A stretch of 64,000 nt of DNA, from assembly GCA_029582155.1 (NCBI GenBank), contig CM055898.1:25087339-25151338 (forward strand), read 5' to 3'. Source of the stretch: Panopea generosa (lineage: Eukaryota > Mollusca > Bivalvia > Adapedonta > Hiatellidae). Of the stretch, positions 7,401 through 52,175 are shown in pieces (positions within the stretch are counted from its first letter, which is position 1; the number at the start of each line of letters is the position of its first letter). The position numbers and the translations under genes were made by a program. A model generated the notes under the pieces. It was not told the DNA's origin, made no database searches, and saw nothing but the letters and a program-made list of their open reading frames with translations.

Positions 7401-10400
7401 CTTTGTTTTATATGTATTTTTTATTCTATTCGACAGAGCATATTTTGTAAACCAATTCCTAGTCCGTAAACCATGTCTGTTCTCAACATAGCGTGGTACA
7501 TGTAATTGAAAGCAGTGTAACAAAATTGGAAATATTAAGAAAATAGTGGTGTTGATCAATTAAAATAAATACAAATCACCTTATCGCAATCAATATTAAG
7601 AGGCTACCAAGGGTGGTTTATTTAGCACTGTTACAGTTATCAAAAAAAAAATTAATATATTTTTAATTTTATATGAACGATTCGTCACGGAGGTGCAATA
7701 AATTAACTCGTGGGTTCCAGTTCATTAATACACTGAAGGGAATAAAAGGGATGTTCTTAAAAAACTATCTTACCGCAAGCGGTTATATAATTTTTAACTG
7801 CAAACCATACAGTTCCCCATACTATGTTTCTCTCTGAAGTGAATTAACCGACCGACGCGTTTCCGAATAAGTTTCGTAACTCCCCGTTTTCTGCCATAGG
7901 TGTTTATCGGTAAGAGACGAACATTAAATTGTAAACAAATTCCGTTCTTAACTATGTACTTTAATGTGCTTTATATTTGTTTTTTCGTTTGCAAAGACTC
8001 TCAGTAATCAAATGATGTATTCTTCATCTGGAAGAGTAAAACGGACTTAAATTAAAACTAAAATCGACAGTTTCGGAATGATCCTTTAATTATTTTCAAG
8101 CAGTCTACTGAACGCTACCTTAACTATTTAATATTTTGCAAATATGTGACCACATCCGTTCATTTAACATTCCATTTTAAAGTTAAGTATATAGGTATCA
8201 CATCACGTGACTTTTTGGTAATAGACATGGCTTTTTTTCTAACAGAAGATCTGGATCTTTGTAAAGATATTCCTTTAAACAAAACAGAAACGCGGTTTGG
8301 TATCACCACGTAAATTGAGTCAACTTTATAGTTTTCTGGATATATTCTTTTTTTTCTCGAAACATTCTATCATCTCAAAATTCGGAAAATGAATGATAAC
8401 AAGATATTTCGCCTCAATTAAAACGGAAATTTGTCTTAAGCATCTAGTCAAGGGAATGAGTAAAATCGGCCTTTTTAGACAGGCTGCGGCTATATACAGG
8501 TAAACATGCTCTGAAAGCAAACAATATGAAAAAGCAAGTGAGACTGCGTAAGACAAGTGGCTGCTTAATAGATGTGAACACTTACGCAGATTTGATTGTA
8601 CTTTAATCCAACATAAATAGTTATTTCTATGAACATTTTCACTGTGTTTTGTCACAATCCGTTATTATGCAAAAACATTATCTTTAACGTAATCTATTTT
8701 TTTAAAGAAAATTGGCCATGTTTGATATAAAAAATTCACGAGGTTTCAAAACTTGCATGGCATTCTCACCTTCTACCTTCTGGCAACCCTGATTACTCTT
8801 GTAATACAAGATGAAGTTGTTCGTGACAGGAAGACTGATTGGTGTTCTATAATCTCCATCATTTCTGCAGCAGAATTTGTATTCAAAGAATCGGTCATGC
8901 TGACCGTCTGGTACAACTCCCGTGGAACCATTTCTCAACTGAACATTACCGTATGTCTCTATGGTACCATTCTCAAAACCTGTAACATATCAATACATCA
9001 TATATGTCCTGTCATAAGCGTTAATACATTTACTAAAAGCATTGTTTTCTAATAATGTTAACAGAAACATACATATCACAGAAGGTTTAACATAAAAATA
9101 ATAACAATAACAGTATCTTCATTAAATTTATTTACATGCAAATATGAAATATATTTAGCATATTGTAATAAAAGTTAACACGTTTTTTCACCTGAAGTTT
9201 GTAAAACCCCTTAAACGAATAAGTTGATTCAAAGATTGTAAAGTGAAAATATCAACATGGCGAAATATGCATGGAAATAAACAACACCATAATACTAAAA
9301 CATATGCACTTTCCTTTGTCACTATAATATGCTTTGTCTCGTTGTTAATGCTTTATCAGCAGAATATCTATTTCTTTGACATTAAGATTTATTAAATAAT
9401 GCATTGTTACAGGTAAAATTTCTTAAAGTTAATACCGTTATCATTACATAATTGCATGGTCTTGCATTAGTAATCAGTATTTGTGCATGCCAGATTCATC
9501 AATCCTGTTTTGATTTCGTTCTTCTAGTTTAAATCATAAACTACTCTAGTAGCTGCAGTATCGCAAGCAATTCTCTGTTGATACCATGACTTTAATCAGA
9601 ACTTCATACTTTACATCGCGGCACACTTCATATGTTAGTAAACTGTATTCCCCCCGACCAATCCTAGTATACTAAATTCCCCTGATAACCAAGCGATACC
9701 CATCCTTGTTATCAGAATTTAATACTTTACCATCGGGGCACACTCCGCCATATCTTAGTATACAATATTCCCCTGGTTACCAAGTGATACCCATCCTTGT
9801 TATCAGAAATTAATACTTTACCATCGGAGCACACTCCGCCGTATCTTAGTATACAATATTCCCCTGGTTACCAAGTGATACCCATCCTTGTTATCAGAAT
9901 TTAATACTTTACCATCGGGGAACACTCCGCCATGTCTTAGTATACAGTATTCCCCTTTACCAAGTGATACCCATCCTTGTTATCAGAAAGTCATACTTAA
10001 CCATCGGGGCACACTCCGCCATATCTTAGTATACAATATTTCCCTGGTTACCAAGTGATATCAGAAAGTCATACTTAACCATCGGGGCACACTCCGCCAT
10101 ATCTTAGTATACAATATTCCCCTGGTGAGTAATTGATACCTATCCTTGTTATCAAAAAGTAATACTTAACCACCGTGGCACACTCCGCCATATCTTAGTA
10201 TACAAGATTCCCCTGGTGATTAAGTGAAACCCATCCTTGTTATCAGAAATTAATATTTTACCATCAGGACACACTCCGCCATATCTTAGTATACAGTATT
10301 CTCCAGGTGACCATGGGCCAGAACCAGCGCTCGTCGTTTTTGTGCACGTATCATGGGATATTTCACGTCCATCTATGTACCTTTTTAGATATGTAACTTT

Positions 10401-13400
10401 TATTTATTCCAATGTGTTATGGTTATGCAATTTCTTATATATAACCAAAACAGAAAATCACAAACTACTGCTTTCATTTTTCAAAATGCTAAGAGCGCAC
10501 TCATTTTATTGATAGTTAAGCTATTAACAATTTCCTTCTTAGATGTAAATTCATTTTCTATCGGGACAATCAAACAGCCGAGCAGCACAGTTCTATGAGA
10601 GCTCTTGATGTTACAAATGATAATAGATACATGGTATATAATTCATTTTTTTCTTTTACTTTTTGGGATTCGTATAATACAAACAATGAATGACCAGCAG
10701 TAATTAGACCATAAAACGTTTTTACTTATTATCGTTACAATATTGTCAATCTTTGTTGTAAACATGTTATTTAAGAAGTATTCATAGATTAATGGTCATT
10801 GACATATAACTAAAACTCAAATTTGAAACTTTTTTTAGGGTGTTCGAATAATTTACGCGCACGTCAGACGTGCAAACAGACGATGTACAATATAAAAAAT
10901 GTAAAAAAAAAAGAAATCGTTGTTGTTTTTTTTTGTACATCTAGTGTGACTTTAATATTTGGTTAACACGGTAAACATACACAAATAAGGGGAACATGTC
11001 ACAGTTTTTGTTCCCAGCAATCGGAACATCGCTCGTCGTGCGTAGGCGGAAATTGCCGAGCGATGTTCCGATAGTGTTCCCAGAAATAATTTTACATCAG
11101 TAGGAAATACAAAATACGTTTGCTATCTTTGCTTCAGCGATCCATTCTATTTACCCTGGGGAGTTATATTGTCCGCCATTCCACACCCACGACGAGGCCC
11201 AGTGCACCATATTTCCCTCGGCATATCCGGCTGAGCAATTTTTATCTTTCACTTTAAGCGTAGAATGTGTACCATTGGGCATCATGGTTGGGTAAGCTTA
11301 AATGAAACGAAATGAAGAATGTTTCTTGTGTGGAACTTCAGCTGCAGCTGTGATCAATATACTAAATAAACTGTGTTTAGTAAGTATGTTATTATTAATA
11401 TTGTTACAATATAAATACATGACAAAATTGATATCATGTATTTTGATATTAAACAATGCAATATAAATACATTACAAAATTATTATCATGCATTTTGATA
11501 TTTGCCAATACAATATAGATATATGACAAAATTAATATCATGTATATTGATGTTTGCCATTAAAATATGAAACATATAACAAAAATATGAACTACATAAC
11601 AAAATTGATGTCATGAATAGTGATATTTGCCAGTACATTTCAATAGCTTTTGTTTCATTTCTATTTTGCATTCTCACTCTAACCAGTCATTGCCCCTTCG
11701 TTCAAAACATTGTTTCATGAGATACAACTGGCTCTTATTAAATGCGTTCTTTCATAGGAAATAAAGGGTCACAAAAAGTCGTACAATTAGTGATACATAC
11801 TTGGGGCGTATCTGGTCGTACAATAAGTCATACATACTTAGGTCATATCTGGTCGTACAATTAGTGATACATACTTGGGGCGTATCTGGTCGTAAAATTA
11901 GTGATACATACTTGGGGCGTATCTGGTCGTACAATTAGTTGCAGAATCCAAACCATCCGGGCATCTGCAGGAACATTTCCCGTCAATTACACTTTCATAT
12001 CCGCCCATCTCACACACAGGCTTCGTATCACATGATGGAAACTCGGCTGTTATGTAATAGACACCATAACGTAGTATAAGTAAAGTTTATGTTACTTGAA
12101 ACAATTCATGAAAATAGAAAAAAATCATATAAATAATATTTTCATCAAAATACACCCTGGTTATTAATAAATCAAATAATGGATGTGTAGGTGGATAGGT
12201 ACGTCGAGCATCCTGGCGTACCTGTTGATGTGACATCTATATAATAGATATATGATTCAGGGTTTCGCTTATGTTTTAGAAACAACGCAATACAGCTTCA
12301 ACATAATCATATTACTATAGCAAAGCGCGTGGCCAAGTGGTAGTGCATCGAACCCATGACTGGAGGGTCGTACGTTAATTCCTCCGTCACGGCTATGTGT
12401 GGTGTCACTGAGTGAGACACTTTTTCCGCACATCCTTTGTACTGGTTCTATCAAGGAAATCTTCGAGCGTGATTTGCCTAAGAACCTAAGTAAAATGTAA
12501 ACGTTTAAACTAACATTACCAAACAAATATAAGAGCTTGCATCATGTCAATATCTGGCCCATTATAAAGTTACATGCGTATATTTAAACAAATGCCATAT
12601 TACGACATTGCGTTGTTTAGTTAGAGTTGATCAACATAGTAATATTTGATCATAAGATAATGTAAATTTATGAATGAAAAAAGTATAGATTTGATAGATA
12701 ACAATTTTGCAATAAAATACCTTCATCAAATTAGCTTTAAATATTTGCTTATATTAGGAAATATGCAAATCTATTTGAGCTGGATTGCGAAAACAGTTCA
12801 AAGCTTACATAAACCGCTCTCGAGTACGTTTCCTGTGTTAAACTAACACTGACTGTGCTTTTTAAGAGACAGCCTTCGAGATTTGGATCGAACCATCAAA
12901 CCTTTGATATGAGCGATTCTGAACATTCTACTGCCCGGCTCAAATTTGAATATTGCTAATATTCTAAGGAGACCTTGTTGAATTTCCAGCATAAATACAT
13001 TATAAATATAATAAATAATAATAAATAGATAAACTGATGACGCAAATATATATATATATTTTTTTTCTACTTCGATGAACAAATACCCAAAACTGCGGTC
13101 TTTGTTTGCGTGTGTGACGTCACAATGTCATGCATTGTTACGTATAGTTTTCCTCTAATTCACATAAAAATGCGTGCGTTTATTTAAATGCTGGCAATTT
13201 GACTGTTACATCAATGACATAAAAGTGTTGGTTAGCTGTGTACATTCCATTTTTTAAATGTTTATCTGAAATGGTTTGAAAAAATACAATGTAAAATGCA
13301 AAGTATTGATAGCACAATGGCATCTCGGTAAACCAAATTTTTCTTTTTTTTAACCCGATGGAATCCCATTTTTTTTTATTTCAATCCCTAAATACGGTAC

Positions 13401-16400
13401 GCATGTAGATCGACTATGCCACTTTTCAGTGACTTGAAATACTGTGTAAGTCTGTAGCTACAGTAAAATGTGTTGTATTAAACAGCCACATTTTCTATTA
13501 ACTCATTGTTTTAATCAACACGTATATATATATCCATTGAGTGGCTGCTAAGGACAGGTTTAACTGTATCTAATTCATACTTACCATAGCAATTGTGATA
13601 TTCCTGCAGTGTCTTGAACATATAAAACGTATTACCGCTCCCTATAAGGTAGGTGACGTCAGGGTCATTGGGCACCTGTGTTTTTGCATAGTTTTTATGA
13701 AAATCCTGAAATAAATTGATTATACTTAATATTAAAACAAATTACAAAATAAAATTAAAATTATTTCGAGATATTTTATGGTACGGTTAATAAAATGATA
13801 AAATAATGATTACCATAACAAATATAACACAAAATGATATGGATAAAAATCAACATATAACAAGTTAAACAATATGAAAATGGTGTTTTAAGAAGTTTTA
13901 TTTATCTAAATTCGCAAACAAGTGGTGAATTTGATTTTCATGTAATAAGCATTAAAACAATTAAAATAAATCGATACTTTTGTTTTATGCCATTATCCAC
14001 ATTTTTCAATGCACCAACGGGCTGTTATCGCATCGATATTTTATATAAGTATGTTTTTATGTGTACGTACCCATAGCCCGTAATGCATGGTAGAACTCAT
14101 GTCATAAGGCCGACCGTCATTCCATATAGATTTCAAACTACTTCGGTAATACTGCGAACGGTATTCTTAAAAACGGTAAAAACAGTATTTTTTATTATAT
14201 ATGCGACGTTACGTCATACGTCTCGAGTCGACAATGTTACTTTACTATAGTCGTATGCGAACAATTATTTATTAACCCTTCAAAACATGTGTATTTCTTT
14301 TCTGTTGTCTACCGTTCTGACGTCTGTAAGGTTTCAGTTTGAGATTGTAGTGTATCACTGTTTTCTAAGATATCTGTTTATTACACTTATGTATAATTTC
14401 TGCATGTGGTTTCTGTTTGAAATATGCCTGTTACACTTATGTATAATTTCTGCATGTAGTTTCTGTTTGAAATATGTCTGTTACACTTATGTATTATTGC
14501 TGTATGTGGTTTCTGTTTGAGATATGTCTGTTACAATTGTGTATCATTTCTGCATGTAGTTTCTGTTTGAAATATGTCTGTTACACTTATGTATCATTGC
14601 TGTATGAAGTTTCTGTTTGAGATATGTCTGTTACACTTATATATTATTTCTGTATGTAGTTTATGTTAGAATTATATCTGTTACACATTTGTATCATTTC
14701 TGTATGTAGTTTATGTTTGAAATATGTCTGTTACACTTTTGTATCATTGCTGTATGTGGTTTCTGTTTGAGATATGTCTGTTACACTTACGTATCATTTC
14801 TGCATGTGGTTTCTGTTTGAGATATGTCTGTAGCATTGACTTCTGAGATGTTCGATTTGAGATATTTCTGTATCAGTTTTCTATGATGTCTGTTTGATAT
14901 ATTAAACGGTGGTAAATAATCAGCTTATAGTATATTTAAATTTAAATGTTAAATGATAATGCATAATGTATTTACTGTCTTTCTGATTTTGATACTTCAT
15001 GGAGAGCGAAGGAAAGGAACCTGGTAACTTCTGCTCGTGCATCATTCCTAGTGCATGTCCTATTTCGTGTACAGCCACACTCTGTTAATATGTAAAAGTT
15101 TACATAATTTATTATAAGTATTAATCATAACCTTAATTGAGGAATAGTAGAAAATACATATTTTTTTCTAAATAGTTTATGTTAATTTTTCATAGGTGTA
15201 ACATAAATAACTGCAAATATAATATGTATGGACAAGCTTACTCGGTAACACGTCTAAAGGTCTAAATCATGTAGAAATTGCTTTTGTTGTTTTATTAAAG
15301 TAGAAATGTCCCTTGTATCATAACCGTAAGGTTGATTACACAAAAAAACGCGGTTAAAGCTCACCAGTGGCGGATTGGCCACTGACCGTTTAAAAGCGAC
15401 GGTAGCCCCTTACGTATCCACTTTTCTGTATATTTGTTGTGACCTTTATAATGAGCCAATAAGCTGTAAATGAATGTGTACTATTGTTTTGGCTGTGGTC
15501 GTTGAATGCTATGCTCATGTTGGACGGTTTGTTGGCAATATTGTTCAATAATCCATGTTATATAAATTGCACTATTAACACTGAATCAATTAAAATTTTA
15601 AACCAAATACATTTATCAATTATGTGTTAAAATAGTCTCTACATGCATGCATTGGCTGTCCCCGAGCTTTATTGTACGTATCCCATCTCTACATGGATAC
15701 ATTGGCTGTCCTCTAGCTTAATTGTACGTATCCCATCTCTACACGGATATATTGGCTGTCCCCTAGCTTTATTGTACGTATCCGATCTCTACATGCATGC
15801 ATTGGCTGTCCCCGAGCTTTATTGTACGTATCCCATCTCTACATGGATACATTGGCTGTCCCCTAGCTTTATTGTACGTATCCGATCTCTACATGCATGC
15901 ATTGGCTGTCCCCCGAGCTTTATTGTACGTATCCGATCTCTACATGGATACATTGGCTTTCTACTAACTTTATTTTACGTATCCTATCTATACATGGATA
16001 CATTGGCTGTTCCCTAGCTTTATTGTACGTATTCCATCTCTACATGGATACATTGGCCGTCCCCGAGCTTTATTTTACGTATCGTATCCCATCTCTACAT
16101 GGAAACATTGGCTGTCCCCTAGCTTTATTGTACGTATCCTATCTCTACATGGATACATTGGCTGTCCCCGAGCTTAATTGTACGTATGCCATCTCCACAT
16201 GCATGCATTTGCTGTTCCATAGTTTTATTGTACTTACCTCATTGCCACATACAAGCAATAAATTGTGCAAGACAACATTTTAATTTTGTTGTTGGCAAAA
16301 AGTTAAATGTAAGAAAAACAAGCACAATCTTTATATGGATTTCTCTGAAGCAACAAACGCGTTTGACATATATGATAAATGAAATATAAAGTGCAAAATG

Positions 16401-19400
16401 GAGTTTTGAATTACATCGCCACTTGTTTCGTTTTACTGACATATCTTGCCCTTAATATGTCACAATGTAGCTGCATTTGGGTAAAACTGATTGTCAAAAA
16501 TGGGTACACAATTGTACTGTTATGTTTGCGTCTTCAAATCGCAACTTTTATATATCTTTGTGGTGTCGATATACATCATTTACTTTCAAATGGACATTTA
16601 CTGAGCAATTCTTTTCATTAACAAATTCCGGTACCAAAATGATTCCATCGTCAGTGAATTTAATTGAGCACAAACAAAACGTTTAAACTAGAAAAAATAA
16701 ATAGTTATAGAATTATCAGTCAATATGTTTCTAAGCATGATTGTATTTGCCACTCATGCAAAATTGTATCGCTGTTTAGTTGACTGTATTCACCCAATTC
16801 CACAGATGCAAATAGGTTGCCCTTTATCATGATTGCACCCCCACACCCAAACCTCAACATGCAAAACGTTCTTAATTGTACTTATACCACCTCTTCATGC
16901 CAATTTGGCCATCCCCTAGCTTAATTGAACTTATACCACCTCCTCATGCCAATTTGGCCATCCCCTAGCTTAACTGTATTCATCCCACCTCCTCATGCCA
17001 ATTTGGCCATCCCCTAGCTTAATTGAACTTATACCACCTTCTCATGCCAATTTGGCCATCCCCTAGCTTAACTGTATTCATCCCACCTCCTCATGCCAAT
17101 TTGGCCATCCACTAGCTTAATTGAACTTATACCACCTCCTCATGCCAATTTGGCCATCCCATATCTTGATTGTACTAATACCACCTCCTCATTCCAATTT
17201 GGCCATCCCCTAGCTTGATTGTACTTATACCACCTCCTCATGCCAATTTGGCCACCCCCTAGCTTAATTGTACTTATACTACCTCCCCATGCCAATTTGG
17301 CCATCCCCTAGCTTGATTGTACTTATACCACATCATCATGCCAATTTGGCCATCACCTAGCTTGATTGTACACATCCCACCTCCTCATGCCAATTTGACC
17401 ATCCCTTAGCTTGATTGTACTTATACCACCTCATCAAGCCAATTTGGCCATCCTCTAGCATAATTGTACTTATACCACCTCCTGATGCCAATGTGGCTAT
17501 CCCCTAGCTTGATTGTACTTATACAACCTCTTCATGCCAATTTGGCCATCCCCTAGCTTAACTGTTCTCATCCCACCTCATCATGCTAATTTGGCCATCC
17601 CCAGCTTAATTGAACTGATACTACCTCCTCATGTCAATTTGGCCATCCCCTAGCTTGATTGTACTTATACCACCTCCTCATGCCAATTTGGCCATCCCCT
17701 AGCTTGATTGTACTTATACCATCTCCTCATGCCAATTAGGCCATCCCCTAGCTTAACTGTACTCATCCCACCTCCTCATGCCAATTTGGCCATTCCCTAG
17801 CTTAATTGAACTTATACCACCTTCTCATGCCAATTTGGCCATCCCCTAGTTTAACTGTACTCATCCCACCTCCTCATGCCAATTTGGCCATCCCCTAGCT
17901 TAACTGTATTCATCCCACCTCATCATGATCATTTGGCCATCCCCTAGCTTAACTGTACTCATCCCACCTCATCATGCTAATTTGGCCATCCCCAGCTTAA
18001 TTGAACTTATACTACCTCCTCATGTCAATTTGGCCATCCCCTAGCTTGATTGTACTTATACCACCTCCTCATGCCAATTTGGCCATCCCCTAGCTTGATT
18101 GTACTTATACCAGCTCCTCATGCCAATTTGGCCATCCCCTAGCTTAATTGTACACATCTCACCTCCTCATGCCAATTTGGCCATCCCTAGCTTAATTGAA
18201 CTTATACCACCTCCTCATGCCAATTTGGCCATCCCATATCTTGTTGTACTAATACCACCTCCTCATTCCAATTTGGCCATCCTCTAGCTTGATTGTACTT
18301 ATACCACCTCCTCAAGCAAATTTGGCCATCCCCTAGCTTGATTGTACTTATACCAGCTCCTAATGCCAATTTGGCCATTCCCTAGCTTGCTTGTACACAT
18401 CCCACCTCCTCATGACAATTTGGCCATCCCATAGATTAATTGTACTTATACCACATCATCATGCCAATTTGGCCATCACCTAGCTTGATTGTACACATCC
18501 CACCTCCTCATGCCAATTTGGCCATCCCCTAGCTTGATTGTACTTATACCACCTCCTCAAGCCAATTTGGCCATCTCCTAGCTTGATTGTACTTATACCA
18601 GCTCCTAATGCCAATTTGGCCATCCCCTAGCTTGATTGTACACATCCCACCTCCTCATGCCAATTTGGCCATCCCCAAGCTTAACTGTACTCATCCCACC
18701 TCCTCATGCCAATTTGGCCATCCCCTAGCTTGATTGCACTTATACCACCTCCTCATGCCAATTTGGCCATCCCCTAGCTTTATTGTACTTATACCAGCTC
18801 CTAATGCCAATTTGGCCATCACCTAGCTTGATTGTACTTATAACAGCTTCTAATGCCAATTTGGCCATCACCTAGCTTGATTGTACTTATACCACCTCCT
18901 CATGCCAATTTGGCCATCCCCTAGCTTGATTGTACTTTTATCAGCTCCTCATGCCAATTTGGCCATCATCTAGCTTAATTGTACTTATACTAGCTCCTCA
19001 TGCCAATTTGGCCATCCCCTAGCTTGATTGTACTTATACCAACTCCTCATGTCAAATTTGCCATCCCCTAGCTTAATTGTACATATCCCACCTCCTAATG
19101 TCAATTTGGCCATCCCCTAGCTTGATTGTATTTATACCACCTCCTCATGCCAAATTGGTCATCCCCTAGCTTAACTGTACACATCCCACCTCCTCATGCC
19201 AATTTGGCCATCCCCTAGCTTGATTGTACTTATACCACCTCCTCATGCCAATTTGGCCATCCCCTAGCTTGATTGTATTATTACCAGCTCCTCATGCCAA
19301 TTTGGCCATCCCCTAGCTTGATTGTACTTACACCACCTCCTCACGCCAATTTGGCCATCCCCTAGCTTAATTGTACACATACCACTTCCTCATGCCAAAT

Positions 19401-22400
19401 TGGCCATCCCCTAGCTTAACTCTATACATCCCACCTCCTCATGCCAATTTGGCCATCCCATAGCTTGATTGTACTTATATTACCTCCTCATGCCAATTTG
19501 GCCATCCCCTAGCTTGATTGTACTTATACCACCTCCTCATGCCAATTTGGCCATACCCTATCTAGATTGTACTTATACCACCTCCTCATGCCAATTTGGC
19601 CATCCCCTCGCTTGATTGTACTTATACCACCTCCTCATGCCAATTTGACCATCCGCTAGCTTGATTGTACTTATACCTCCTCCTCATGCCAATTTAGCCA
19701 TCCCCTATCTGATTGTACTTATACCACCTCCTCATGCAAATTTGGCCATCCCCTAGCTTGATTGTACTTATACTACCTCCTCATGCCAATTTGGCCATCC
19801 CCTAGCTTGATTGTACTTATACCACCTCCTCATGCCAATTAGGACATCCCCTAGCTTGATTGTACACATCCCACCTCCTCATGCAAATTTGGCCATCCCC
19901 TAGCTTGAATGTACTTATACCACCTCCTCATGCCAATTTGGCCATCCCCTAGATAAATTGTACTCATCCCACCACCTCATGTCAATTTGGCCATCCCCTA
20001 GCTTAACTGTGCACATCCCACCTCCTCATGCCAATTTGGCCATCCCCTAACTTGATTGTATTTATACCACCTCCTCATGCCAATTTGGCCATCCCCTATC
20101 TTGATTGTACTTATACTACCTCCTCATGCCAATTTGGCCATCCCCTAGCTTGATTGTATTATTACCAGCTCCTCATGCCAATTTGGCCATCCCCTAGCTT
20201 GATTGTACTTACACCACCTCCTCACGCCAATTTGGCCATCCCCTAGCTTAATTGTACACATACCACTTCCTCATGCCAAATTGGCCATCCCCTAGCTTAA
20301 CTCTATACATCCCACCTCCTCATGCCAATTTGGCCATCCCATAGCTTGATTGTACTTATATTACCTCCTCATGCCAATTTGGCCATCCCCTAGCTTGATT
20401 GTACTTATACCACCTCCTCATGCCAATTTGGCCATACCCTATCTAGATTGTACTTATACCACCTCCTCATGCCAATTTGGCCATCCCCTCGCTTGATTGT
20501 ACTTATACCACCTCCTCATGCCAATTTGACCATCCGCTAGCTTGATTGTACTTATACCTCCTCCTCATGCCAATTTAGCCATCCCCTATCTGATTGTACT
20601 TATACCACCTCCTCATGCAAATTTGGCCATCCCCTAGCTTGATTGTACTTATACTACCTCCTCATGCCAATTTGGCCATCCCCTAGCTTGATTGTACTTA
20701 TACCACCTCCTCATGCCAATTAGGACATCCCCTAGCTTGATTGTACACATCCCACCTCCTCATGCAAATTTGGCCATCCCCTAGCTTGAATGTACTTATA
20801 CCACCTCCTCATGCCAATTTGGCCATCCCCTAGATAAATTGTACTCATCCCACCACCTCATGTCAATTTGGCCATCCCCTAGCTTAACTGTGCACATCCC
20901 ACCTCCTCATGCCAATTTGGCCATCCCCTAACTTGATTGTATTTATACCACCTCCTCATGCCAATTTGGCCATCCCCTATCTTGATTGTACTTATACTAC
21001 CTCCTCATGCCAATTTGGCCATCCCCTAGCTTGATTGTACTTATACCACCTCCTCATGCCAATTTGGCCATCCCCTATCTAGATTGTACTTATACCACCT
21101 CATCATGCCAATTTGGCCATTCCCTAGCTTAATTGTACCTATACCACCTCCTCATGCCAATTTGGCCATCCCCTAGCTTGATTGTACTTATACCAGCTCC
21201 TAATGCCAATTTGGCCATCCCCTAGCTTGATTGTACACATCCCACCTCCTCATGCCAATTTGGCCATCCCCTAGCTTGATTGTACTTATACTACCTCCTT
21301 ATGCCAATTTGGCCATCCCCTATCTTGATTGTACTTATACCACCTCCTCATGCCAATTTGGCCATCCCCTAGTTTAACTGTACTCATCTCACCTCCTCAT
21401 GTTAATTTGGCCATCCCCTAGCTTAACTGTGCACATCCCACTTCCTCATGCCAATTTCGCCATCCCCTAACTTGATTGTACTGATACCACCTCATCATGC
21501 CAATTTGGCCATCACCTAGCTTGATTGTACTAATACCACCTCCTCATGCCAAATTGGCCATCCCCTAGCTTGACTGTACTTATACCACCTCCTCATGCCA
21601 ATTTGGCCATCACCTAGCTTGATTGTACTAATACCACCTCCTCATGCCAAATTGGCCATCCCCAAGCTTAACTGTACACATCCAACTTCCTCATGCCAAT
21701 TTAGCCATCCCCTGTCTTGATTGTACTTATACCACCTCCTCATGCCAATTTGATCATCCCCTATCTTGATTGTACTTATACCACCTCTTAATGCCAATTT
21801 GGCCATCCCCTAGATTAACTGTACTCATCCCACCTACTCATGTCAATTTGGCCATCCACTAGCATGATTGCACTTATACCACCTCCTCATGCCAATTTGG
21901 CCATCCCGTGCTTGATTGTACTTATACCACCTCCTCATGCCAATTTGGCCATCACCTAGGTTGATTGTACTTATATCACCTCCTCATGCCAATTTGGCCA
22001 TCCCCTATCTTAATTGTACTGATACCACCACCTCATGCCAATTTGGCCATCCCCTAGTTTAACTGTACACATCCCACCTCCTCATGCCAATTTGGCCATC
22101 CCCTAGCTTGATTGTACTAATTCCACCACCTCATGCCAATTTGGCCATCCCCTAGCTTGATTGTACTTATACCACCTCCTCATGCCAAATTGGTCATCCC
22201 CTAGCTTAACTGTACACAACCCACCTCCTCATGCAAATTTGGCCTTCCCCTAGCTTTATTGTACTATTACCACCTCCTCATGCCAATTTGACCGTCCCCT
22301 ATCTTGATTATACTTATACCACCTCCTCATTCCAATTTGACCATCCGCTAGCTTGATTGTACTTATACCACCTCCTCATGCCAATTTGGCCATCACCTAG

Positions 22401-23195
22401 CTTGATTGTACTTATACCACCACCTCATGCCAATTTGGCTATCCCCTTGCTTGATTGTACTTATACCACCAGCTCCTCATGCCAATTTGGCCATCCCCTA
22501 GCTTGATTGTACTAATACCACCTCCTCATGCCAATTTGGCCATCCACTAGCTTGATTGTACTCATCCCACATCGATGTGCAAATTTAGCTGTCTCTGAAC
22601 TAGATTGTACTCACCCCACCTCCACAGGCCCAAATACTCTGTCCGTTTCCTCTTAGGTTGCCTACATACGATCTACACCTGAATGCAAAATAAAGTATGT
22701 TTGACACATTTATTATAGTAAAATTTAAAATTGATTATACATGTGTTCAAATAAATTGTTTTGAAGGCTTGTTTAACGGAACGGTATTAGTAAAACCTTT
22801 TGTACACTAAATGTCCCACTTAACAATTACCTCCCCTAAAGTCCTTGTGCTAGACAAAATAGAGCCGTGGTGTGTAGTTGTGATTTTTTTTTAAAAAGTA
22901 AAATGCGTTATGTTATAGGTGAGAGGATTGGAATAATTTCATAAGTTTCAAAAAGTTTAGGTGACATGGCGTTCAGATAGTTGGAAGGTACGTAGCAACA
23001 AATGCTTATCTATAGAAACAAGGCGCATTAAAAACCAGTTGGAATGTTTTCTGTGATTTAAAAATACATTTTTATATATGTATAATGGAGCAAACTTAAT
23101 TGTTGTCTGAGACGTAAAGTTCACAGTGCAAAACACATAATAATATGGAACTATTACGTAATCCAAAAAGTATGTTATTGCAATAACCAAATTAT

Positions 23196-32200: not shown

Positions 32201-35200
32201 AGAATTGGACATTCCCCATCAGTGCTTACTTCAGTTTAAAATGAAACACTATTGTCATAAAATCATAACAAAAATATGGCATTCATTATTTTCTAATGCA
32301 GTTTTAAATGAAACGAAATGAAACACTATTGTCATAAAAAACAGCAAAAGTATGGCCTTCACCATCATTTCTTACTTCACTTTTAATACTATTTATTCCA
32401 CGGATTTCTCATATGGCAGCTTATATGTTTTTCTAATACCCAGATTATGCCTGATTTGTTTTGAATGAAGGTCTATGTCTATGGATGTTAACCCAAATTG
32501 TACTAGTATTAATAATCCTTATGACCTTTCTAGCGGGGCTGCAGTAAAGTGGGTATAGTACTGGTCGCTCACACAGAAGGTAAACGTTCGGTCTCAGACT
32601 CAACCCGATGAAATTTAAAATACACTCAGTAGTGGTTCTACCTCGAAACGGATTCGAAAGCAATTGATATAAAGACTGAGCTGTTTTCGCAATCAAGCTC
32701 AAATTAATAAGTATAAACTTGGGACCCACGAACTTGAATGCCATGATGAAAGGATGGTTTGCTTATTCGAACTTTTACAGTTTTATGTACATTTTTTAAT
32801 TTTTAAAACTGGAATTTTAAAACAGCAATTGTCAATTTCTATTTTCCGTCGCAATTATGAGTGGTTTTGACAAATGAACACTATTAATTCGATAACTAAG
32901 CTTACTATTTTGCTAAGAGAGAAAAATCCACGTTGAAGAGTTCGCATGCATGGTTCTTATAACGATCTGTGTTGAGTTGCTCAAAGCTGTGTTAAAACAG
33001 ATATTGTTTTAGATTATTCATTTTTTTTCGTCGCAATTATGAGTGGTTTCAGACAAACGAACGATATGAATTCGATGACAAATCATTATATTTATGTAAG
33101 AGCTACCTTTATTGAACAAGTTCATTTTGAAGAGTACATGTCCATGGTTCTTATAACGGTCTATGCTGAGTTGTTCAAAGCTTTGTTAGCTTGACACTCT
33201 GTCAGGCGAAATCTTGCAAGTTCGATTTATTTAAAATTTTACAGTTTAAAGCTTTATTAGCTTTACACCAAGTTTAGATGAAATATTGCATGCTCGATAT
33301 ATTTTAAACCTTAGAGTTTCCATATGATGTGCAATGGGGTATAGAAGTAGAATGACAGTTAATTACTATTGGCTGTAAATTGTTAACCTGAATGTTTGAA
33401 ATCTCAAATTATCTCTATTCGAAAATGTATATTAGCACGGCGTTAACCTAACGGTGTTTTGATGAAATTTGTCCTGATATATTATTTTAAAGGGAACATA
33501 CCAGGATTTTTCCAACTTTGAAATTGGCTAAAACATTTTTTCCCCAATATAGCTTACCTATATATACACACTGACCACATATTTCCTTATGGACAAATAA
33601 TTAAACAATTGTCACGTTTTGATTGATTTAACCATTCGGATTTTATTTATTGATGCCAATGAGATGCGTTTTATCCTTTTTAAAAGTATTTTCAAACATT
33701 TATATAGCGTTTGTTCTTCACGTGTTAGTGAAGAGTAGCCATGAATTTATGTTATTTTTCACCAAACATTTATTTGCTTAAATCATTTTCATTTCTTTCT
33801 CACAAACGTTTTTTTCTCACTTGCACGATAATTAAACATTACTTACCACTTCGAATGGAACTTCTTTTTTAACCTGTAAGAATGATAATTTAATTTATTT
33901 AAAACAAGTAAAAAGAAGAATAAAATGGGTTTACTGGTGACCAAAACTTAGACTTCTCCACGTACTCTGTAACTTCCTCTCGCGTCTTATCAGTACATAG
34001 CATGACGGTGTTCATAATATATGGCTGTGATTGTCCGCCTAAATACCCAAATATGTAAACGTGTATTTAAATATGTAAGAATATGTTATTCGTTTGTTAT
34101 GGTGATATTAAAGGTATTTACTTTTGAAAATTTCTACTTAAAAATCTGCATTTTGTTTAGATTTTGGTCTTTTAAAATAAAATATACATGTATGTTTAAT
34201 TTCTTTGGGTGACGAACGCCGGATACTGTGCATATTGTGGGGATCGGATGATGGACATAATATACTAAATACCTTTCCATCATGTTTGTTAGAATTGTTT
34301 CCGTTCATGGTTCCATTTCTATTACTGTTCCCATTTCCATTACCGTTTTTATTTCCATTACTGTTCCCATTTCCATTACCGTTTCTATTTCCATTACTGT
34401 TCCCATTTGCATTACTGTTTCCGTTATTGTTCCCATTATTGTTTCCATTTTTATTAACGTTACCGTTACTGTTTCCATTTCCTTTTGGGGTTCCCTGTAA
34501 ATTTAATACAAAATAATAGTAAGTGTTTCCTGCAAAACGATAGAACAATATTGTTTTTAGGCATAGCACCCCCATTGGTTGGGTTTTCATATTTAAAAAT
34601 GCGTTGACCTTATTGTATTGCTCAATTTTGAATTTGAATCACATTATTGTTTTTTTTTACATTTGAAAAACATTATTATGATTTTATTGCGAATTAAGAA
34701 AAAGAAACGATGGTACGTTATTGGGGTATTAACACATTATTCACCTTTAACTTTGTCAACAGTGTGAACACCGAGCAGAAAAAAAACTCCCTAATTTGCT
34801 ATGTAACCAATTTTCTCATCATATTTTGATAGTGCAGAGATTGACAAACAATAAAAGAACAAAAAACAATGGTGGGTGTACTCCTTTATGGAAAAAAGTA
34901 CCGTTTTTTTTTGTTACTAGCTCATAGACAAGCTTTATGTAAGTTCACAGAGAATGTATTATAAAGATTAGTTTTGACCCCTTTAATTCATTTTTGTTTA
35001 CGTTTTTGTTGTTTAAGTTGTTGTTATTATATTTCAATTATAGAAGAACTATATTTTTTTTTAACACAAAGCAATATGGAAAATCAACAAATACTTATAT
35101 AAATAAAAATGGATGAAAATAATTTCTAAATTCTCATAGAGTACACTTCGATATGCCTTTCAATGAATAACTAAATGAGAAAAAAAAACAACAACTTCAC

Positions 35201-39714: not shown

Positions 39715-40155
39715 GTAATGGATATACAAGAAAATATTATATTTCTAAATAGAAAACATAGCACGCCGCAAAGGACATAGCCACCACACTATTATAACGC
39801 ATTCACTGTATAGACAAGAAAATATACAGCTAAATAGAAAACATCGTACGTCGCAAAGGACATAGCCACCACAAAAGTAAAACGCATTTAACATGTACAT
39901 CTAAATAGAAACCAAAGTACTCCACAAAGAACATAGCCGTCACTACATTATAACGCATTATTTTAGACAAGAAAACATATATCCAAATAGAAAACATAGA
40001 ACGCCGCAAAGGACATAGCCATCACAACTGTATAACGCATTCAATGTATTAACTAGGAAAATATATACCCAAACAGATACTATAGTACGCCGCAATGGAC
40101 ATAGTTACCACAAAAGTATAACACAGTCAATGTATAAACAGTAACATATATACCT
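39715..40155. repeat. 85-bp tandem array, left part (split by later insertions)
   Basis: Unit GTATAACGCATTCAATGTAT + AGACAAGAAAATATATATCC + AAATAGAAAACATAGTACGC + CGCAAAGGACATAGCCACCA + CAACA, about five diverged copies. The same array resumes at 51519 on the far side of the SINE and Harbinger insertions. Confidence 0.88.
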
Positions 40156-40247
40156 CAACATCATCGGAGCGCCGTGGGTTCGATTCTCCGCTACGGCCAT
40201 GTGTAGTGTCCTTGCGCAAGTCACTTTTTCTAGATATGCTTGGTAAT
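40156..40247 (+). mobile_element. SINE family A, left half (split by the Harbinger element)
   Basis: GGGTTCGATTCTCCGCTACG, CATGTGTAGTGTCCTTG and CTTTTTCTAGATATGCTTGG match the body of the full copy at 45146. The match stops exactly where the Harbinger inverted repeat begins and resumes at 51429. The tRNA-like head is missing, so this copy is truncated at its 5' side. Confidence 0.8.
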
Positions 40248-40276
40248 GGCCCCGGTTTCACGAAAAAACTTAAGTT
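40248..40276 (+). repeat. Left terminal inverted repeat of the Harbinger element
   Basis: GGCCCCGGTTTCACGAAAAA then ACTTAAGTT; matches the right end at 28 of 29 positions. Confidence 0.92.
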
Positions 40277-40527
40277 ATAACTCATGAGCTGACTCATTTA
40301 TGAACTTAAGTCCGTTAACAAACTCAACTGAGTAAGATCGTATGAGACTGTTTCATGAAACGACTTAAGTTTTGTCTCAGTTGAGTGAATTAAGCGTCTC
40401 AAACTTTATGATTATCAATAACACAAGCGGTTCCGTTTCCGGTACTCTTCATCGAAAAGGTACGAAAATGACTTAAATACGGGAAACTTTGACGTTTGAC
40501 AGATGTCGTTTGGTCTGCGCGAGAGAT

Positions 40528-43500
40528 ATGGACAAAAGAAAAAGGTCACAGAATTGGACGGAGGATGAGAGAGTTTCTGCTATAGAAGCCATACACCAAA
40601 ATGCAGAAACCCTCTTCTGCAAATTTAGAGGATTATCCCAGGGTGCAAAAGCAAAGGACGACAGATGGCAGGAGATTGCCTTAAGTTTAAATGCGTAAGT
40701 ACGTACATAGACACTGTGTCACATACGGGTCTGTAGCAGGAGATTACCTTAGGGTTTAAACGCGTAAGTGCGTACATAGACACTGTGCCATATACGGGTC
40801 TGTAGCACTGACCTATGACCGGAGAAATATCGCACAATGGAATAATAGAGCTTGAGTACCAAATTGAGAAGTTTCGTACCACATTTAGTTCCATGTATAT
40901 AAACTTTACTGTATAGTGCGCAATGGGTTATTATGAGAATAAACTATAATCAGTGACTTAATTATATAATTTATATTTTTTTATTTTATCAATTGTAGCG
41001 AATGTACATGGATCATTTACAACAGCGTCGCTGTTAAACTAGCTTTTATAGCGACATGGTTTAAGTACACTGACTGTATTGGAAGTTAAGCAACGAAGTA
41101 AGGGGTTAGTACATGGATGGGTGACCGCTGTCACTTTAAGGGTGACAAGGATTAACTATTTAACCTGCATATGCACGAATCTCTCTTTCCTTGGGATGGG
41201 GCGGGATATGGCCAGGAACTGCAGGTAGCCACGGGCTGTGCAGTTAGGGCTGAGCTCTAAAGGTTAAAGAGGGGAGGAGTGTAGTGAATGTACATGGGTC
41301 ACTTACAACAGCGTCGCTGTTAAGCTAGCTTTTATAGCAACATGGTTTAAGTGCACTGACTGTATTGGAAGTTAAGCAACGAAGTACGGGGTTAGTACTT
41401 GGATGGGTGACCGCTGTCACTTTACAATGAGAAATATTGATATCTTATAGTTTATTCCCATTGCATTTGTTTCTATTTATGCATTTTTTTATCAATCCAA
41501 TAAACTGAACAAGGATACAAATATACTTGAGATGAGGTACATGTACTGATAAGATTTTATATCCTTATTGTTTTTCCAAAAGCCAGTAGTGGTACAAGAA
41601 TACATTTTATTTCTGAAACATCATTGAATATTAGATACATATTTTCATTTCATATGTCGTTTGTTTTTATTTTACAAAGGGCCGGGAAAACATCCTGCTT
41701 GAGAAGCACTGCTGATATAAAGAAGATGTATAGCAACATGAAAAGTCGAGGTATGTTTTAATCTCAGTTTAGAAAAATGTATATGTGTAGCAGTTTCTAA
41801 ATCTAAGTGTATGTTTTTAGAGAGCGAGAATTTATTTTATACTCAATTTTATTAAACTGTCATCGTTACTTTCTAAGCTTCATATTGATAAACATATCGT
41901 GATAAATCTTCGTATAGCATGGACAAAGTTTAAAGTACACAGGGAACATATTTTTACCCTCTTTTCCCTGTGTGTAGGATTCACACCACTATTATCTCCC
42001 TTGAGTACTCCAGACCTACAGATGAAGGAGGTAGAAATAAAACTTTAGATCTCTTTTTCAGGGCTTTGTACTGCAATGGTTTGTTTTTTTGCTAGCATGA
42101 GTTAAATGGTCAGTATTTTAGAAATCACCACTGAAAATTCGATGCTGATACCAGCTTTCTGGACAATTCTGTGTCATTTCAGAATTGTTGGTTCGAACCG
42201 CATCTAGGGCGAATAGTTGACATATTATTACTCTGGAAATTGATAGGTCTCGCAAAAGCATTGAATTAAAAAAAAAACAACCTAGTCAAGATATGCTTTT
42301 TTCCTTTATAATTGCATATCTTGAACCAGTGAAGAATTTGAGCCCAGACACATGCTGCAGAATTTGATTTTTCACTCTGTTTTGGACATAAATGTTACAA
42401 TTGAGCCCTATGGGAAATGTAATAGTGGTGTGAGACGTGTAGGAAAAATATGTAAGCATAATCTTTCCCTCCTCACCAACAGTTTTATGTTTACTTTATA
42501 CATATCGCACCAAATCTCTTCCTTTGCACTTGCATATTAAGGGACTGCTAATATCAAGTCAACCAGGATCAAACCCTCATCCTCTGGCATGATGTGCCAA
42601 CATCGTTTCTGTCGCACTACCACGGAACCACCCCTTGCTTAGTTAAATATTTATCTTGCTTTCTTGAATCATTTTTCTTCCAAATGATGTAAATTGTACA
42701 TTAATCATACTTTATTTAAGTTAAAGAAAAATACGATAGGAACAAAATGGCAGGTGGTGGAGCACATGTTGGTTTAAGTCCAGCAGAAGATTTGGTGTTG
42801 CAACATCTCCTTAGTTTCAACAGGGAATCTGTTGAAGGCATTCAGCATGGGATTGATTCTTTTCAGGGTAAGTTTAATTTAAAAGAAAACAAATGTAGCA
42901 TGTTTATCAAATTCTAAAAACAGCTTTAGTGTTTTTAATTTTCATTTTATTCAAGCATTATTTGTATAAATTGTAAGAATTTGTTTCACAATTAATGTAA
43001 ACAAATGTAATAATAAGGCTAGAAAATGCCACTGTGTGTAGTGTATTGACACTTGCAGACATTTAATTATTCTAAAGTGTATTCAAAACAAAGTGATACG
43101 GCTGATGGACCATGTAAATAATGGCAAACTTTGTAATGAAATAACATGTTAAATATTCCATATTATGTGAACTCTATTTAATAACACTGTCTGTCTATAG
43201 ATCTACAACACATCTAAGTAAGGCATATTTTATATTTAAACAAGTAATTTGAATTTTAAAAACTTTAAACAAGGCAATATCCACTCATTATATGATACAT
43301 ATTATCAATACATAATTTATATACACTAATTATGAAAACTATATGAAAAAAAAAATTAAATTCAATAACTGAAAGATCATCCAACAACTTGATGACATTG
43401 AATTTTAACATTACCAACAAAGTATTGAATATGAGGACAGATCAACATGGAGGTTTGTATGGTATTTAAGAAAAAGGACCACTTTATCTTTTTTGGAAGA

Positions 43501-44869
43501 TTATTTATGATCTAAATCATTGGTATGTACAAACTATAATATCCTTGTAAAATGTATTATTTAACTTGACATGTAAGTAAAATGATTTCTTTAAAATATG
43601 TTTATTTTCTTTTTACCAGACTGTGTTGTCTCACTCCCAGATGATTTAGATGGCTTTGAAGTCTTCCCAGGCAACAACATTATTATAAGGTATATATATG
43701 TTTAGATATTAATGAATTTAGAAGATGAAAATGCTTATTCTTAATAGATATCAATATAAAGACTTCTCTTTGAAACTACACCATTAATAGTATTCACATA
43801 ATCTTTTTTGAGTCTTTAATATACATTTTGCAATAGCTTCCTTCCAGAAATGGGTCATTATTAAGGACTTTTTGTTGATGATAAACATACAATATTTGTA
43901 ATTATAGTTGTATTTTAAGGCCATTGTAAAAACTTCAAGTTGTCATTGATTTGATTGAGTCATATGAACTATTTCTTTAGCTTGAATCAACCAGTTAATG
44001 GTCAGATACTGTTTTGACAAGACTGCATTATAATGTATAAGTAGAATAATCAAATGTCCATGGCCACGAAAACTTTATCTCATTTTAACCTGTACACATG
44101 TAATGTTTGAGACAATCAATTTACCGTATACAAGTACTAGACATCTTTTACTTTATTAGTACAGAGGACAACTGGTATATATTTCATTTTTTTCACAGCA
44201 CTGCAGAACACACTGCGACAGGTCAAGGGGATGCCAGTGACGCATTCGGCTGCACACCACATGTAGATGTGCAAAGCAACAGCTGCATAACTGGTAATTA
44301 CTTACTCAGATTATTTGAACACATTGTACTTGGAAAGGGGAAATAATTAGGTAGATAAGTATTCTTTCTTAGTGTCCCTAATTCATATAATTTGTAATAT
44401 AATCATGATATATGTCATGATAATTATGATTATTTTGAAAAAAATAAATTTTACTCAAACATTAAAAAACATGTTGGAAAGATACAGTTTTCATAGCTGG
44501 ACATGGCTAGCTCAGTTGTTAATGTGTTATTTCTGGGGTCATGAGTTTGAATACCTGTCAAACCTCAGTCTCTGTCATACAATCAAAAACAAACATAATT
44601 TTCTTATTATGTTTTGCAATAATGGGCAATGAGTTAAGTCCATGTATTTCACTTTGGATTTGAACAATTTCAGGAGTTAAAAAAACAAAGTCAAGCAAAA
44701 GGCAAGTGGAAGAGAGGGAAAGTATTTGTACAATCTTGAAAGAAAACGCATTGAAGCTGAAATAAAAAAAATTGAAGCAGAGGATCTTAACTATAAAGAA
44801 AAAATGAAACGTGAAGAATTAATGTTCTCTTTAAAAAAGAGAAAATTATTAAAAGAATTAGAACAATAG
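40528..44869 (+). CDS. Harbinger Myb/SANT-like DNA-binding protein (NAIF1-like head)
   Basis: Six exons: 40528-40694, 41680-41750, 42721-42867, 43620-43689, 44199-44293, 44691-44869; 242 residues, all phases agree. The start MDKRKRSQNWTEDERVSAIE begins a trihelical Myb/SANT-like domain (LFCKFRGLSQGAKAKDDRW, QEIALSLNA, then STADIKKMYSNMKSR). This type of domain is found in NAIF1 and in the accessory protein of Harbinger transposons, which binds the element ends and helps bring the transposase to the nucleus. An acidic middle (SLPDDLDGFEVF) is followed by a C-terminal coiled coil, LERKRIEAEIKKIEAEDLNY to LLKELEQ. The last acceptor is set at ACAAAG|TC because the upstream TTTCAG would lead to a stop in the phase-1 frame. 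AATAAA follows at 44941. Confidence 0.78.
40671..40807. repeat. 68-bp tandem duplication of the Myb gene's first 5' splice site
   Basis: GGAGATTGCCTTAAGTTTAA + ATGCGTAAGTACG at 40671 recurs as GGAGATTACCTTAGGGTTTA + AACGCGTAAGTGCG at 40739. Each copy contains the end of exon 1, the gtaagt donor and the same 45 or so intron bases (TACATAGACACTGTG, ACGGGTCTGTAGC). Confidence 0.9.
40995..41424 (+). repeat. Two direct repeats with a 5S rRNA-like core, in the Myb gene's intron 1
   Basis: 144-base units at 40995-41138 and 41281-41424, 286 bases apart. Each carries GGAAGTTAAGCAACGAAGTA then GGGGTTAGTACTTGGATGGG and TGACCGC (copy 1 has ACATGG), which matches the internal promoter part of eukaryotic 5S rRNA (AAGTTAAGCAACG ... 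TTAGTACTTGGATGGGTGACCGC). The 5' half is much altered and the normal 3' end is missing, so these are not working 5S genes. They look like 5S-derived SINE (SINE3-type) units or a 5S-related repeat. Confidence 0.75.
44500..44590 (+). mobile_element. Possible SINE head, tRNA-like
   Basis: ACATGGCTAGCTCAGTTGTT, GAGTTTGAATACC and CTCAGTCTCTGTCAT resemble the head of the SINE at 5795 (GACTGGCTCAGTCGG, GTTCGAATTCC, CACAGTCTCTGAG). It has no body and is strongly diverged. Confidence 0.4.
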
Positions 44870-45145
44870 AATATGTGTCCAAACAAAATTTGATTAAAGC
44901 TGCATAACAAATAATTTTTACTTATGTTGACAAGAACAGAAATAAATGTATTGTCATGATAAAACAAAAAAACAAAATGTTATTATTTGCATGCTTATAG
45001 TTTAAATGTTGAAAATTATCGATGCCAAATTTTGTTTGAATCGAAACACTAAAAGACATATTTCTAAATGCATCCTATTACTTTTGGGACATACCTTGTA
45101 TTGCTAATATTTTATTTAGATGTGGAATACCACTGAAGCGCGTGT

Positions 45146-45357
45146 ATGGAGTGCGTGGTCCTGTGGTAGAGCACCGAACCCATGATTGTAGGGTCATGTG
45201 TTTGATTCTCCACAACAACTATGTGTAGTGTCCTTGAGCAAGGCACTTTTCCGCATATGCTTAGTACTGGTTCTAACAAGGAATACTTCGAGCGTGATTT
45301 GCCTACATTGTAAGAACTTGTTTCACAATTGAAGTAAAATAAATAAGTTTAAACTAT
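45146..45357 (+). mobile_element. SINE family A, full copy nested in the Harbinger element
   Basis: The head GAGTGCGTGGTCCTGTGGTA, the body CTATGTGTAGTGTCCTTGAG, TTCCGCATATGCTTAGTACT and CTTCGAGCGTGATTTGCC, and the tail GTTTAAACTA make this the best-preserved copy in the window. It lies between the two converging Harbinger genes. Confidence 0.8.
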
Positions 45358-45374
45358 AAACTACCACTGAAGGG

Positions 45375-45860
45375 TTATTCTATCTTATCTTGTTTCTATG
45401 TTTTGAACAGTCTAATATTGCTAATCATTTTAAAACATTTTTTACTAGTGTAGACATATTACGTTTACCTCAAAATCTGTTCAATTTAGAATCTGATTGT
45501 TTTAAACAATTTTACAGAGAAAGAAATCCTGACTGTATTAGATTCAGGCTTCACACAGTTAGTGAAGAATTATATCACTGGTTTAGATAATATCCTAGCA
45601 CGATTCTTAAATGATAAATGTTAATCATACAATGTCAAATTTCATGAACATTTCATATGGTGTTCCTCAAAGAAGTATATTAGGTCCATTGCTTTTCTTA
45701 TGTTATGTCAATGATATGAGTGTCAGCATAAGTAAAAAATGTTAATTAATCTTATATGTAGATGATAGTGCTTTCCTATTCTCTCACAAAGATCCTGATT
45801 TTAATAGAAATGTACTTAGTAATGAACTTGAAAATTATGTAACTCTTTAATACAGTGTGC
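45375..45860 (+). mobile_element. Fragment of a LINE reverse transcriptase
   Basis: Pieces of a non-LTR reverse transcriptase follow each other in changing frames: NIANHFKTFFTSVDILRLPQ, RFRLHTVSEEL, ITGLDNILARFLND, then FMNISYGVPQRSILGPLLFL and CYVNDM, and LYVDDSAFLFSHKDPDF. The VPQ..ILGPLLF and YVDD boxes are typical. Stops and at least two small deletions separate the pieces, so it is dead. It comes just after the SINE. Confidence 0.75.
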
Positions 45861-46692
45861 AATTGCAACTTACTGAGAGGACGAAATCATATGGTATAGA
45901 ACAAGCAGATTTTTTTTATTAATTATTTTAATACTTAGTCAAAATATTCAAGAATTTATTTGTGATATGTATGACATCATTCAAATCTTTATGTGATAAT
46001 TAATTTAAATATAAATATTTGATATATTCCGTGATAAAAAAAAACATACGTGAATGTTACAAAATTAAAATATTAAATGACCTACAAAGAGTCAGAGCTC
46101 TTGTGTTTTATTATAAGTAACATATACATTTTTTATATAGCTTTTCCCTGTTATATTAGGTCCATAAAGCTACTATGGTCAAATTTTGAGACCTTGATAT
46201 GTAATTTATAAGTTATATATATATGTCTCAAATATTTGTACCTTATTGTAACAGTAATATATGGTCAAAAAATTTGATTGTTAGGAAAGATTGTAATACT
46301 GTGATTTAATAATTGTTTTATTGTGATATTTATCTGTGATTATTTTGTTTTTAAGATCATTTAAACCAATGGTTCACAGAAATCCTTTTTTTTTTTATAT
46401 AATTATGCAATCAACTGAATATGTTTTAAAAACTGAATTTGAAGAACTTATAAGAAATCAAAATAAAAGTTATGAAACTAAGAATATGCTGTTTGTATTC
46501 CATTATATTTTTGAATTAATTGAATGTATTTATAAAAGTTGAATAAATGATAAAATTTATAAACTTTTTTGATTGTTATTTGAATTTATAAAAATTTCCT
46601 ACTACTTATAGGACTTCTATAGTCTTTATATTATTACATTAATTATAATGTTTGTTTAATTTATGCTATTAATGACAATTAAAAATGAACTT

Positions 46693-51226: not shown

Positions 51227-51399
51227 ATTTGAGACGTTTATTTACTTTGAGGACACTCTTAAGCTTCCTCAAAATAACGTTCTCAACTCAACATTTAAGC
51301 AAAGTACTGAGTTCACTATTTTTCGTGAAACGCTTCACAAATATCTTAATCAACTTAAGTCAGAAATTGAGCAAGATACTCAAGTTGAGTCAAATAACA

Positions 51400-51428
51400 A
51401 ACTTAAGTTTTTTCGTGAAACTGGGGCC
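51400..51428 (-). repeat. Right terminal inverted repeat of the Harbinger element
   Basis: Read on the minus strand it starts GGCCCCAGTTTCACGAAAAA then ACTTAAGTT, the partner of the left end. Confidence 0.92.
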
Positions 51429-51517
51429 TGGTTATAGCCAGGAAGACTTCGAGCGTGATCTGTCTAAGTTGTAAGAACTTGTTTCACAATCGAAATAAAA
51501 TAAATAAGTTTAAACTA
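51429..51517 (+). mobile_element. SINE family A, right half
   Basis: Resumes the SINE after the Harbinger end: TGGTTATAGCCAGGAAGACT, TCGAGCGTGATCTGTC, GTAAGAACTTGTTTCAC and the tail GTTTAAACTA. Together with 40156-40247 it makes one SINE body. Confidence 0.82.
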
Positions 51518-51518
51518 A

Positions 51519-52175
51519 CGGTATAACGCATTGAATGTAAAGAAGAGAAAATATATATCCAAACATAAAACGAATTACGCAGCGAAGGACATATTCAATA
51601 TATAGACAAGAAAATATATATATAAAACATAGTACGCCGCAAAGGACATAGCCATCACAAAAGTATAACGCATTCAATGTATAAACAAGACAATATATAT
51701 ACAAATAGAAAATATAGTACGCCGAAAAGGACAAAGCAACCACAAAGTATAACGCATTCAATATTTAGACATGAAAATATATATCTATATAGAAAATATA
51801 GTACGCCGTATAGGAGATAGCCACCACAAAAGAATAATGCATTCAATGTATAGACAAGTAAATATGTAGAAAACATAGTACGCAACAAAGGACATAGCCA
51901 TCACAACAGTATTACGCATTCTATGCATAGACAAGCAAATCTATATCCAAATAAAAATCATAGTTCGCTGCAAAGGACATAGCTACTACAACTGTATAAC
52001 GCATTCAATGTCTAAACAAGGAAAATATATATCCAAATAGAAAGCATAGTACGCCGCAAAGGACATAGCCACCACAACAGTATAACGCATTCAATGTACA
52101 AACAAGAAAATATAAATCCAAACAGAAAATATAGTACACCGCAAAGGACATAGCCACTACAACAGTATAAATACA
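51519..52175. repeat. 85-bp tandem array, right part
   Basis: Seven or eight copies of the unit seen at 39715-40155 (GTATAACGCATTCAATGTAT, ATAGTACGCCGCAAAGGACA, TAGCCACCACAACAG). Three hydrophobic minus-strand open frames in it (51510-52196) are by-products of the repeat. Confidence 0.9.

Follow-up and report, generated by a model that had tools for sequence, protein, structure and literature searches.

A stretch of 64,000 nucleotides from the bivalve Panopea generosa (contig CM055898.1; hereafter the window) carries on its minus strand a gene in which three introns contain minisatellites homologous to the 5' splice site (donor) of the preceding exon. We placed 19 exons of this gene, from 35742 to 3119, with an AG ahead of every internal exon start, a GT past every end and matching phase, and the phase is consistent throughout. 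The encoded protein has astacin (PF01400, 6.6e-26), ApeC (PF16977, 3.9e-28) and CUB (PF00431, 3.2e-15) domains. A first-pass annotation had put the arrays in introns 9, 13 and 15, and the gene model confirms this numbering, with intron lengths of 7533, 615 and 1282 bp, respectively. The exons and arrays concerned are listed in the direction of transcription, a slash marking the splice junction.

22615–22678, minus strand: exon 9 (astacin domain, ...CRSYVGNLRGNGQSIWACGGG), donor GGG/GTGAGT at 22614
16871–22570, minus strand: 49-bp array of intron 9, from Tandem Repeats Finder (TRF); nhmmer profile matches continue to 22633, inside exon 9
16226–16249, minus strand: edge copy of the repeat with an intact donor-like TGTGGCAATGAG/GTAAGTACAATA (+1 at 16237)
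15636–16233, minus strand: 50-bp array of intron 9, same repeat family as the 49-bp array, with 10 sense-strand AATAAA
14976–15081, minus strand: exon 10 (SVAVHEIGHALG, zinc-binding motif), joined to exon 9 in phase 0 with no exon between
11912–12046, minus strand: exon 13, donor CAA/GTATGT at 11911
11778–11939, minus strand: 37-bp array, four rows with GTATGT, the first row being the end of exon 13
10262–10380, minus strand: exon 15 (ApeC domain, ...GEYCILRYGGVCPD), donor ATG/GTAAAA at 10261
9579–10319, minus strand: 91-bp array, each unit made up of 42 bp or more of exon 15, the donor and some 49 bp of intron

Repeat units and exon edges

The first-pass annotation described each unit as a copy of an exon's last bases together with the donor and the start of the intron, repeated in register with that exon, and proposed that the units be aligned with exon edges and with controls. 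We scored 11 array units against all 38 exon edges of the gene, using as controls 1000 40-mers of intron sequence free of arrays and exons. The best edge was the unit's own donor in each intron, namely donor 9 for the 49-bp unit (score 32), donor 13 for the 37-bp unit (75) and donor 15 for the 91-bp unit (65), and none of the 1000 controls reached the own-donor score in any of the three. In all three introns the array adjoins the preceding exon in register, so that both the register and the homology of the original description hold. A donor origin was rejected for the 50-bp array near 14381–14831 and for the 46-, 52-, 63-, 37- (at 32166) and 72-bp arrays, whose best edges were equalled by 8–52 of the 1000 controls. 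The acceptors of exons 10, 14 and 16 were not among the top four of the 38 edges for the 49-bp unit, the 50-bp unit of 15636–16233, the 37-bp unit or the 91-bp unit; intron gain by tandem genomic duplication (the AGGT model), for which the available part of the source has both donor and acceptor arise from the unit (PMC3443670), does not describe these three introns. Among eight units searched in the window, those of 49/50, 37, 91 and 69 bp occur at their own place only, and an 85-bp satellite behaves otherwise.

The first-pass annotation had given intron 9 a single 50-bp unit. A donor-derived array is indeed present there, but the intron holds two homologous arrays, of 49 and 50 bp, whose units align with a score of 56 (best of 100 shuffles, 22) and which, judged by this alignment, are one family. 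The independent donor arrays of the gene consequently number three. With a fuzzy 26-base pattern that tolerated up to nine substitutions, and so missed more diverged copies, we located 126 donor-homologous sites in intron 9, mostly 49–50 bp apart, the first being the exon 9 donor itself at 22614; three spacings of 97 bp suggest copies that the pattern passed over. The donor position reads AT at 117 sites, GT at four, AA at four and TT at one. Apart from the true donor, GT is kept only at 20212, 19331 and 16237, and 122 of the 125 intronic sites lack it. To the eye, copies at array edges look the most diverged.

The odd copies at 19331 and 20212 lie 881 bp apart, and one TRF row appears at both 19965 and 20846; together these suggest that a larger stretch of the 49-bp array was duplicated more recently. 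Sense-strand AATAAA hexamers of intron 9 fall mostly in the 50-bp array (10 of 14, with two of 14 in the 49-bp array), where they are possible premature polyadenylation signals. Near 16240 a GAG/GTAAGT copy combines Cys-x3 spacing with phase 0, but we rejected an additional exon at this point because exons 9 and 10 join in phase, the Cys-to-HE spacing is already that of BMP1, the last in-frame stop stands 42 nt ahead of the copy's GT, and the closest AG on the upstream side, at 16329, is more distant than that stop. We likewise rejected a duplicate of exon 9 lying upstream of the 50-bp array, the spacer having no match to exon 9 or to the 2 kb before it at E values up to 1.

In intron 13, GTATGT occupies the donor column in four rows of the 37-bp layout, the end of exon 13 included, and a fifth, partial row is without it. 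Intron 15 has seven copies of the 91-bp type counting the exon's own, spaced 91, 91, 78, 89, 91 and 91 bp apart. All six intronic copies keep the GT at the donor column, and they differ from the exon's copy at 4–7 of 42 positions in the exon part and at 5–8 of 36–49 in the intron part.

Decoy donors and predicted splicing

Donor strength was scored with a matrix of approximate weights, and the U1 5' end used was likewise approximate. On this scale the exon 9 donor reaches 10.9. For exon 13 the true site has 6.1; the three copies in the intron have 6.1, 3.6 and 6.1, two of them equalling it. The exon 15 donor scores only 3.9; its six intronic copies score 1.1, 1.1, 1.1, 5.1, 5.1 and 5.1, the weak ones lying nearest the exon, and half of them thus outscore the true donor. 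The "rows of decoy donors" of the first-pass annotation are accordingly apt for introns 13 and 15; in intron 9 the homologous site is dead in nearly every copy, although 41 other GT sites there score at least 6.

When 11 unit sites (two in intron 9, three in intron 13 and six in intron 15) were joined to the next exons, a stop followed in every case, 11, 12, 95 or 107 nt past the true donor. The stop lies within the added piece for 10 of the sites and in the next exon for the first intron 15 copy. Because these joins bring an early stop, use of a downstream unit donor looks unproductive. Introns 13 and 15 are in this respect natural tests of splice-site choice: the former has, at distances of 37 and 111 nt beyond the required donor, two donors with the identical nine bases, the latter three higher-scoring donors 349 to 531 nt downstream of the true one. 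With equal or stronger donors available downstream, the local donor sequence cannot decide the choice.

Origin of the arrays

We propose that short tandem duplications, by slippage or unequal exchange, happened to cover 5' splice sites at three places in this gene, that they were kept because the messenger RNA was unchanged, and that they expanded later, and we give this exon-first account a probability of about 0.72. A duplication spanning a donor would be retained because the exon-nearest donor still yields the correct messenger RNA and the extra copies land in the intron. Splicing would continue to use the true donor, and any leakage to downstream unit donors would meet an early stop and be lost to mRNA decay, for which human ABCA7 offers measurements. 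The intron 9 variant that grew to more than 100 copies would have been one with a broken donor, its +1 G having become A. At exons 9 and 15 the exon edge likely came first and the array was copied from it, since the repeated exon parts belong to conserved domains. The exon 9 tail lies within the astacin domain, its Cys aligning to a Cys of BMP1 with an identical Cys-to-HE spacing and a 3-residue gap immediately before the Cys; the ApeC match, for which exons 15–16 by themselves give E 9.8e-24, takes in the tail of exon 15.

Some observations weigh against this proposal. Tolerance alone does not explain the excess of donor-spanning arrays (P about 0.002), because it predicts that duplications over donors are permitted and not that they outnumber ordinary intronic ones. 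In intron 9 the GT may have been lost through one old change spread by copying, in which case the loss is a single event and no proof of selection.

On the match of units to exon edges, the edge test also gave discordant results. The 50-bp unit of 15636–16233 scores 26 against donor 11 and 21 against donor 9, neither equalled by any of the 1000 controls; we assign it to donor 9 because of where it lies, its register and its homology with the 49-bp unit, and would put the donor 11 match down to chance. A 74-bp unit that forms no donor array scores 22 against donor 18, again with no control as high, and is read as a chance match because donor 18 lies about 26 kb away in a different intron. It follows that the control lets through spurious matches among donor-like sequences that score 22–26, compared with 32, 75 and 65 for the three main units, and the likeness of donors to one another may be the source of matches between unrelated ones.

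Could a recurrent process at exon/intron borders, with breakage or slippage favoured at donors, give birth to such minisatellites preferentially? This was the proposal of the first-pass annotation, which set it against chance. Three of the 10 counted intronic arrays span a donor, where 0.27 are expected under uniform placement of one ancestral unit per array (probability of three or more, 0.00195, in a test carried out once the pattern was known). The probability stays at 0.001–0.004 for 10 or 11 arrays and required overlaps of 1, 6 or 12 bases with one-unit footprints, and is 0.011–0.023 with two-unit footprints. A further, two-copy case in a Harbinger-type element (below) and the human genes with the same kind of array point the same way. 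However, the pattern was chosen after the fact and in a single gene, and acceptor-spanning arrays number zero against 0.26 expected (probability of zero, 0.77), so that donors and acceptors are inseparable at such numbers. The arrays thus do exceed uniform placement, but a donor-directed process would be only a possible origin, and we consider it an unlikely one. The bolder idea that donors in this lineage are birthplaces of minisatellites, duplicated above other intron positions, so that new arrays would repeatedly begin as exon-edge copies and then grow, the largest only once the copied donor was disarmed, seems to us slightly less likely still.

Comparable arrays have been described in human genes. 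ABCA7 carries in intron 18 a variable number tandem repeat (VNTR) with a 25-bp unit that includes the exon 18 donor, and, in the part of that report available, use of the donor in the next unit amounted to 2 +/- 1%, gave an out-of-frame transcript and did not depend on VNTR length, whereas VNTR length raised exon 19 skipping and cycloheximide increased transcripts with early stops (PMC5954066). As in the present gene, the ABCA7 array adjoins the exon and contains its donor; unlike our units, which carry exon sequence too, it has the donor GT as its first two bases, and its polymorphism and RNA effects have been measured, whereas the present arrays are known from one sequence alone (PMC5954066, same part). 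The 31-bp VNTR of CBS (c.1444_1467+7, exon 13–intron 13, 16–21 copies) is closer in layout, its unit comprising, by the coordinates in the accessible text, an exon end and the first intron bases (PMC2630376, PMC1395315). The same text records in CBS a 68-bp duplication of the intron 7/exon 8 junction, giving that gene one donor array and one acceptor-side duplication, against three donor arrays here (PMC2630376, PMC1395315). Variable internal tandem repeats at exon–intron boundaries of human duplicated genes also alter splicing; according to the portion of the source at hand they were found through paralog differences and are not donor-specific, whereas the present arrays span donors (PMC2812944).

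Since ABCA7 and CBS carry the same kind of array, the arrays described here belong to a known kind; the donor-spanning minisatellite is already known from human genes, and it is the presence of three in one gene that is unusual. A minisatellite reportedly supplies multiple splice donors to an interferon-induced transcript, to go by the title of Turri et al. 1995, and the gene is said to be human IFI6 (6-16). In the literature on tandem repeats at splice sites, molluscs and bivalves included, we found no title reporting a genome-wide scan for donor-spanning arrays, a search that covered few subscription papers and leaves absence unproven. If such arrays were in genome-wide excess, the birth of minisatellites would have a preferred site, with a bearing on intron growth and on disease VNTRs such as those of ABCA7 and CBS.

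It is also conceivable that the arrays are regulatory, their copy number setting how much pre-mRNA is lost to decoys or to next-exon skipping; in a variant of this idea, extra U1-like sites would act on how intron 9, a long one, is spliced and on its 3' processing. The equal decoys of intron 13 and the stronger ones of intron 15 are in keeping with such a role, as is the increase of next-exon skipping with VNTR length in the excerpted ABCA7 data (PMC5954066). The 49-bp array, moreover, holds 41 GT sites scoring at least 6 (23 GAG/GTGGG and eight TAG/GTGATG among them), a density of 7.1 per kb where the remaining intron sequence has 1.73 per kb, and its antisense strand has none. This density, however, follows from the unit alone; the 122 dead sites of intron 9 and the three feeble copies nearest exon 15 also count against a regulatory role, and in the same ABCA7 excerpts use of the next-unit donor was unaltered by VNTR length (PMC5954066). 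We therefore give regulation little chance of explaining the arrays. An older intronic satellite that held a donor-like site and into which the exon end moved is very improbable: the repeated part of exon 13 (TTRYAP, residue 454 on) does lie outside the domains found, but the tails of exons 9 and 15 fall within astacin and ApeC.

A Harbinger-type element and minor features

The first-pass annotation had counted a Harbinger Myb gene as a fourth array. What we find there is a duplication of two copies and no array:

40668–40803, plus strand: two-copy duplication (68/69 bp) over the donor of a Myb/SANT exon in a Harbinger-type element

The copies start at 40668 and 40736, 68 bp apart, and the exon matches PF13873 at 6.9e-10. 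GCA is common to the borders of the duplication, which is weak evidence compatible with a short-homology event. The element spans 40248–51428, with inverted ends at 40248 and 51402–51428 (one mismatch in 27), Myb/SANT exons on its left side and, at 46693–47001, a DDE_Tnp_4 piece. It seems, by eye, to be set in sequence resembling a short interspersed element (SINE). The 85-bp satellite lies on both sides of it (39716–40164 and 51517–52169), and the element may have inserted next to a single 85-bp array or into it.

Elsewhere in the window, exon 2 of the host gene (34273–34494) encodes an Asn/Gly-rich tandem repeat and is thus a coding minisatellite. Kringle domain exons (PF00051, 1.1e-10, a match of two pieces joined without a phase check) lie at 460–1450, after the CUB part, and probably belong to the same gene.

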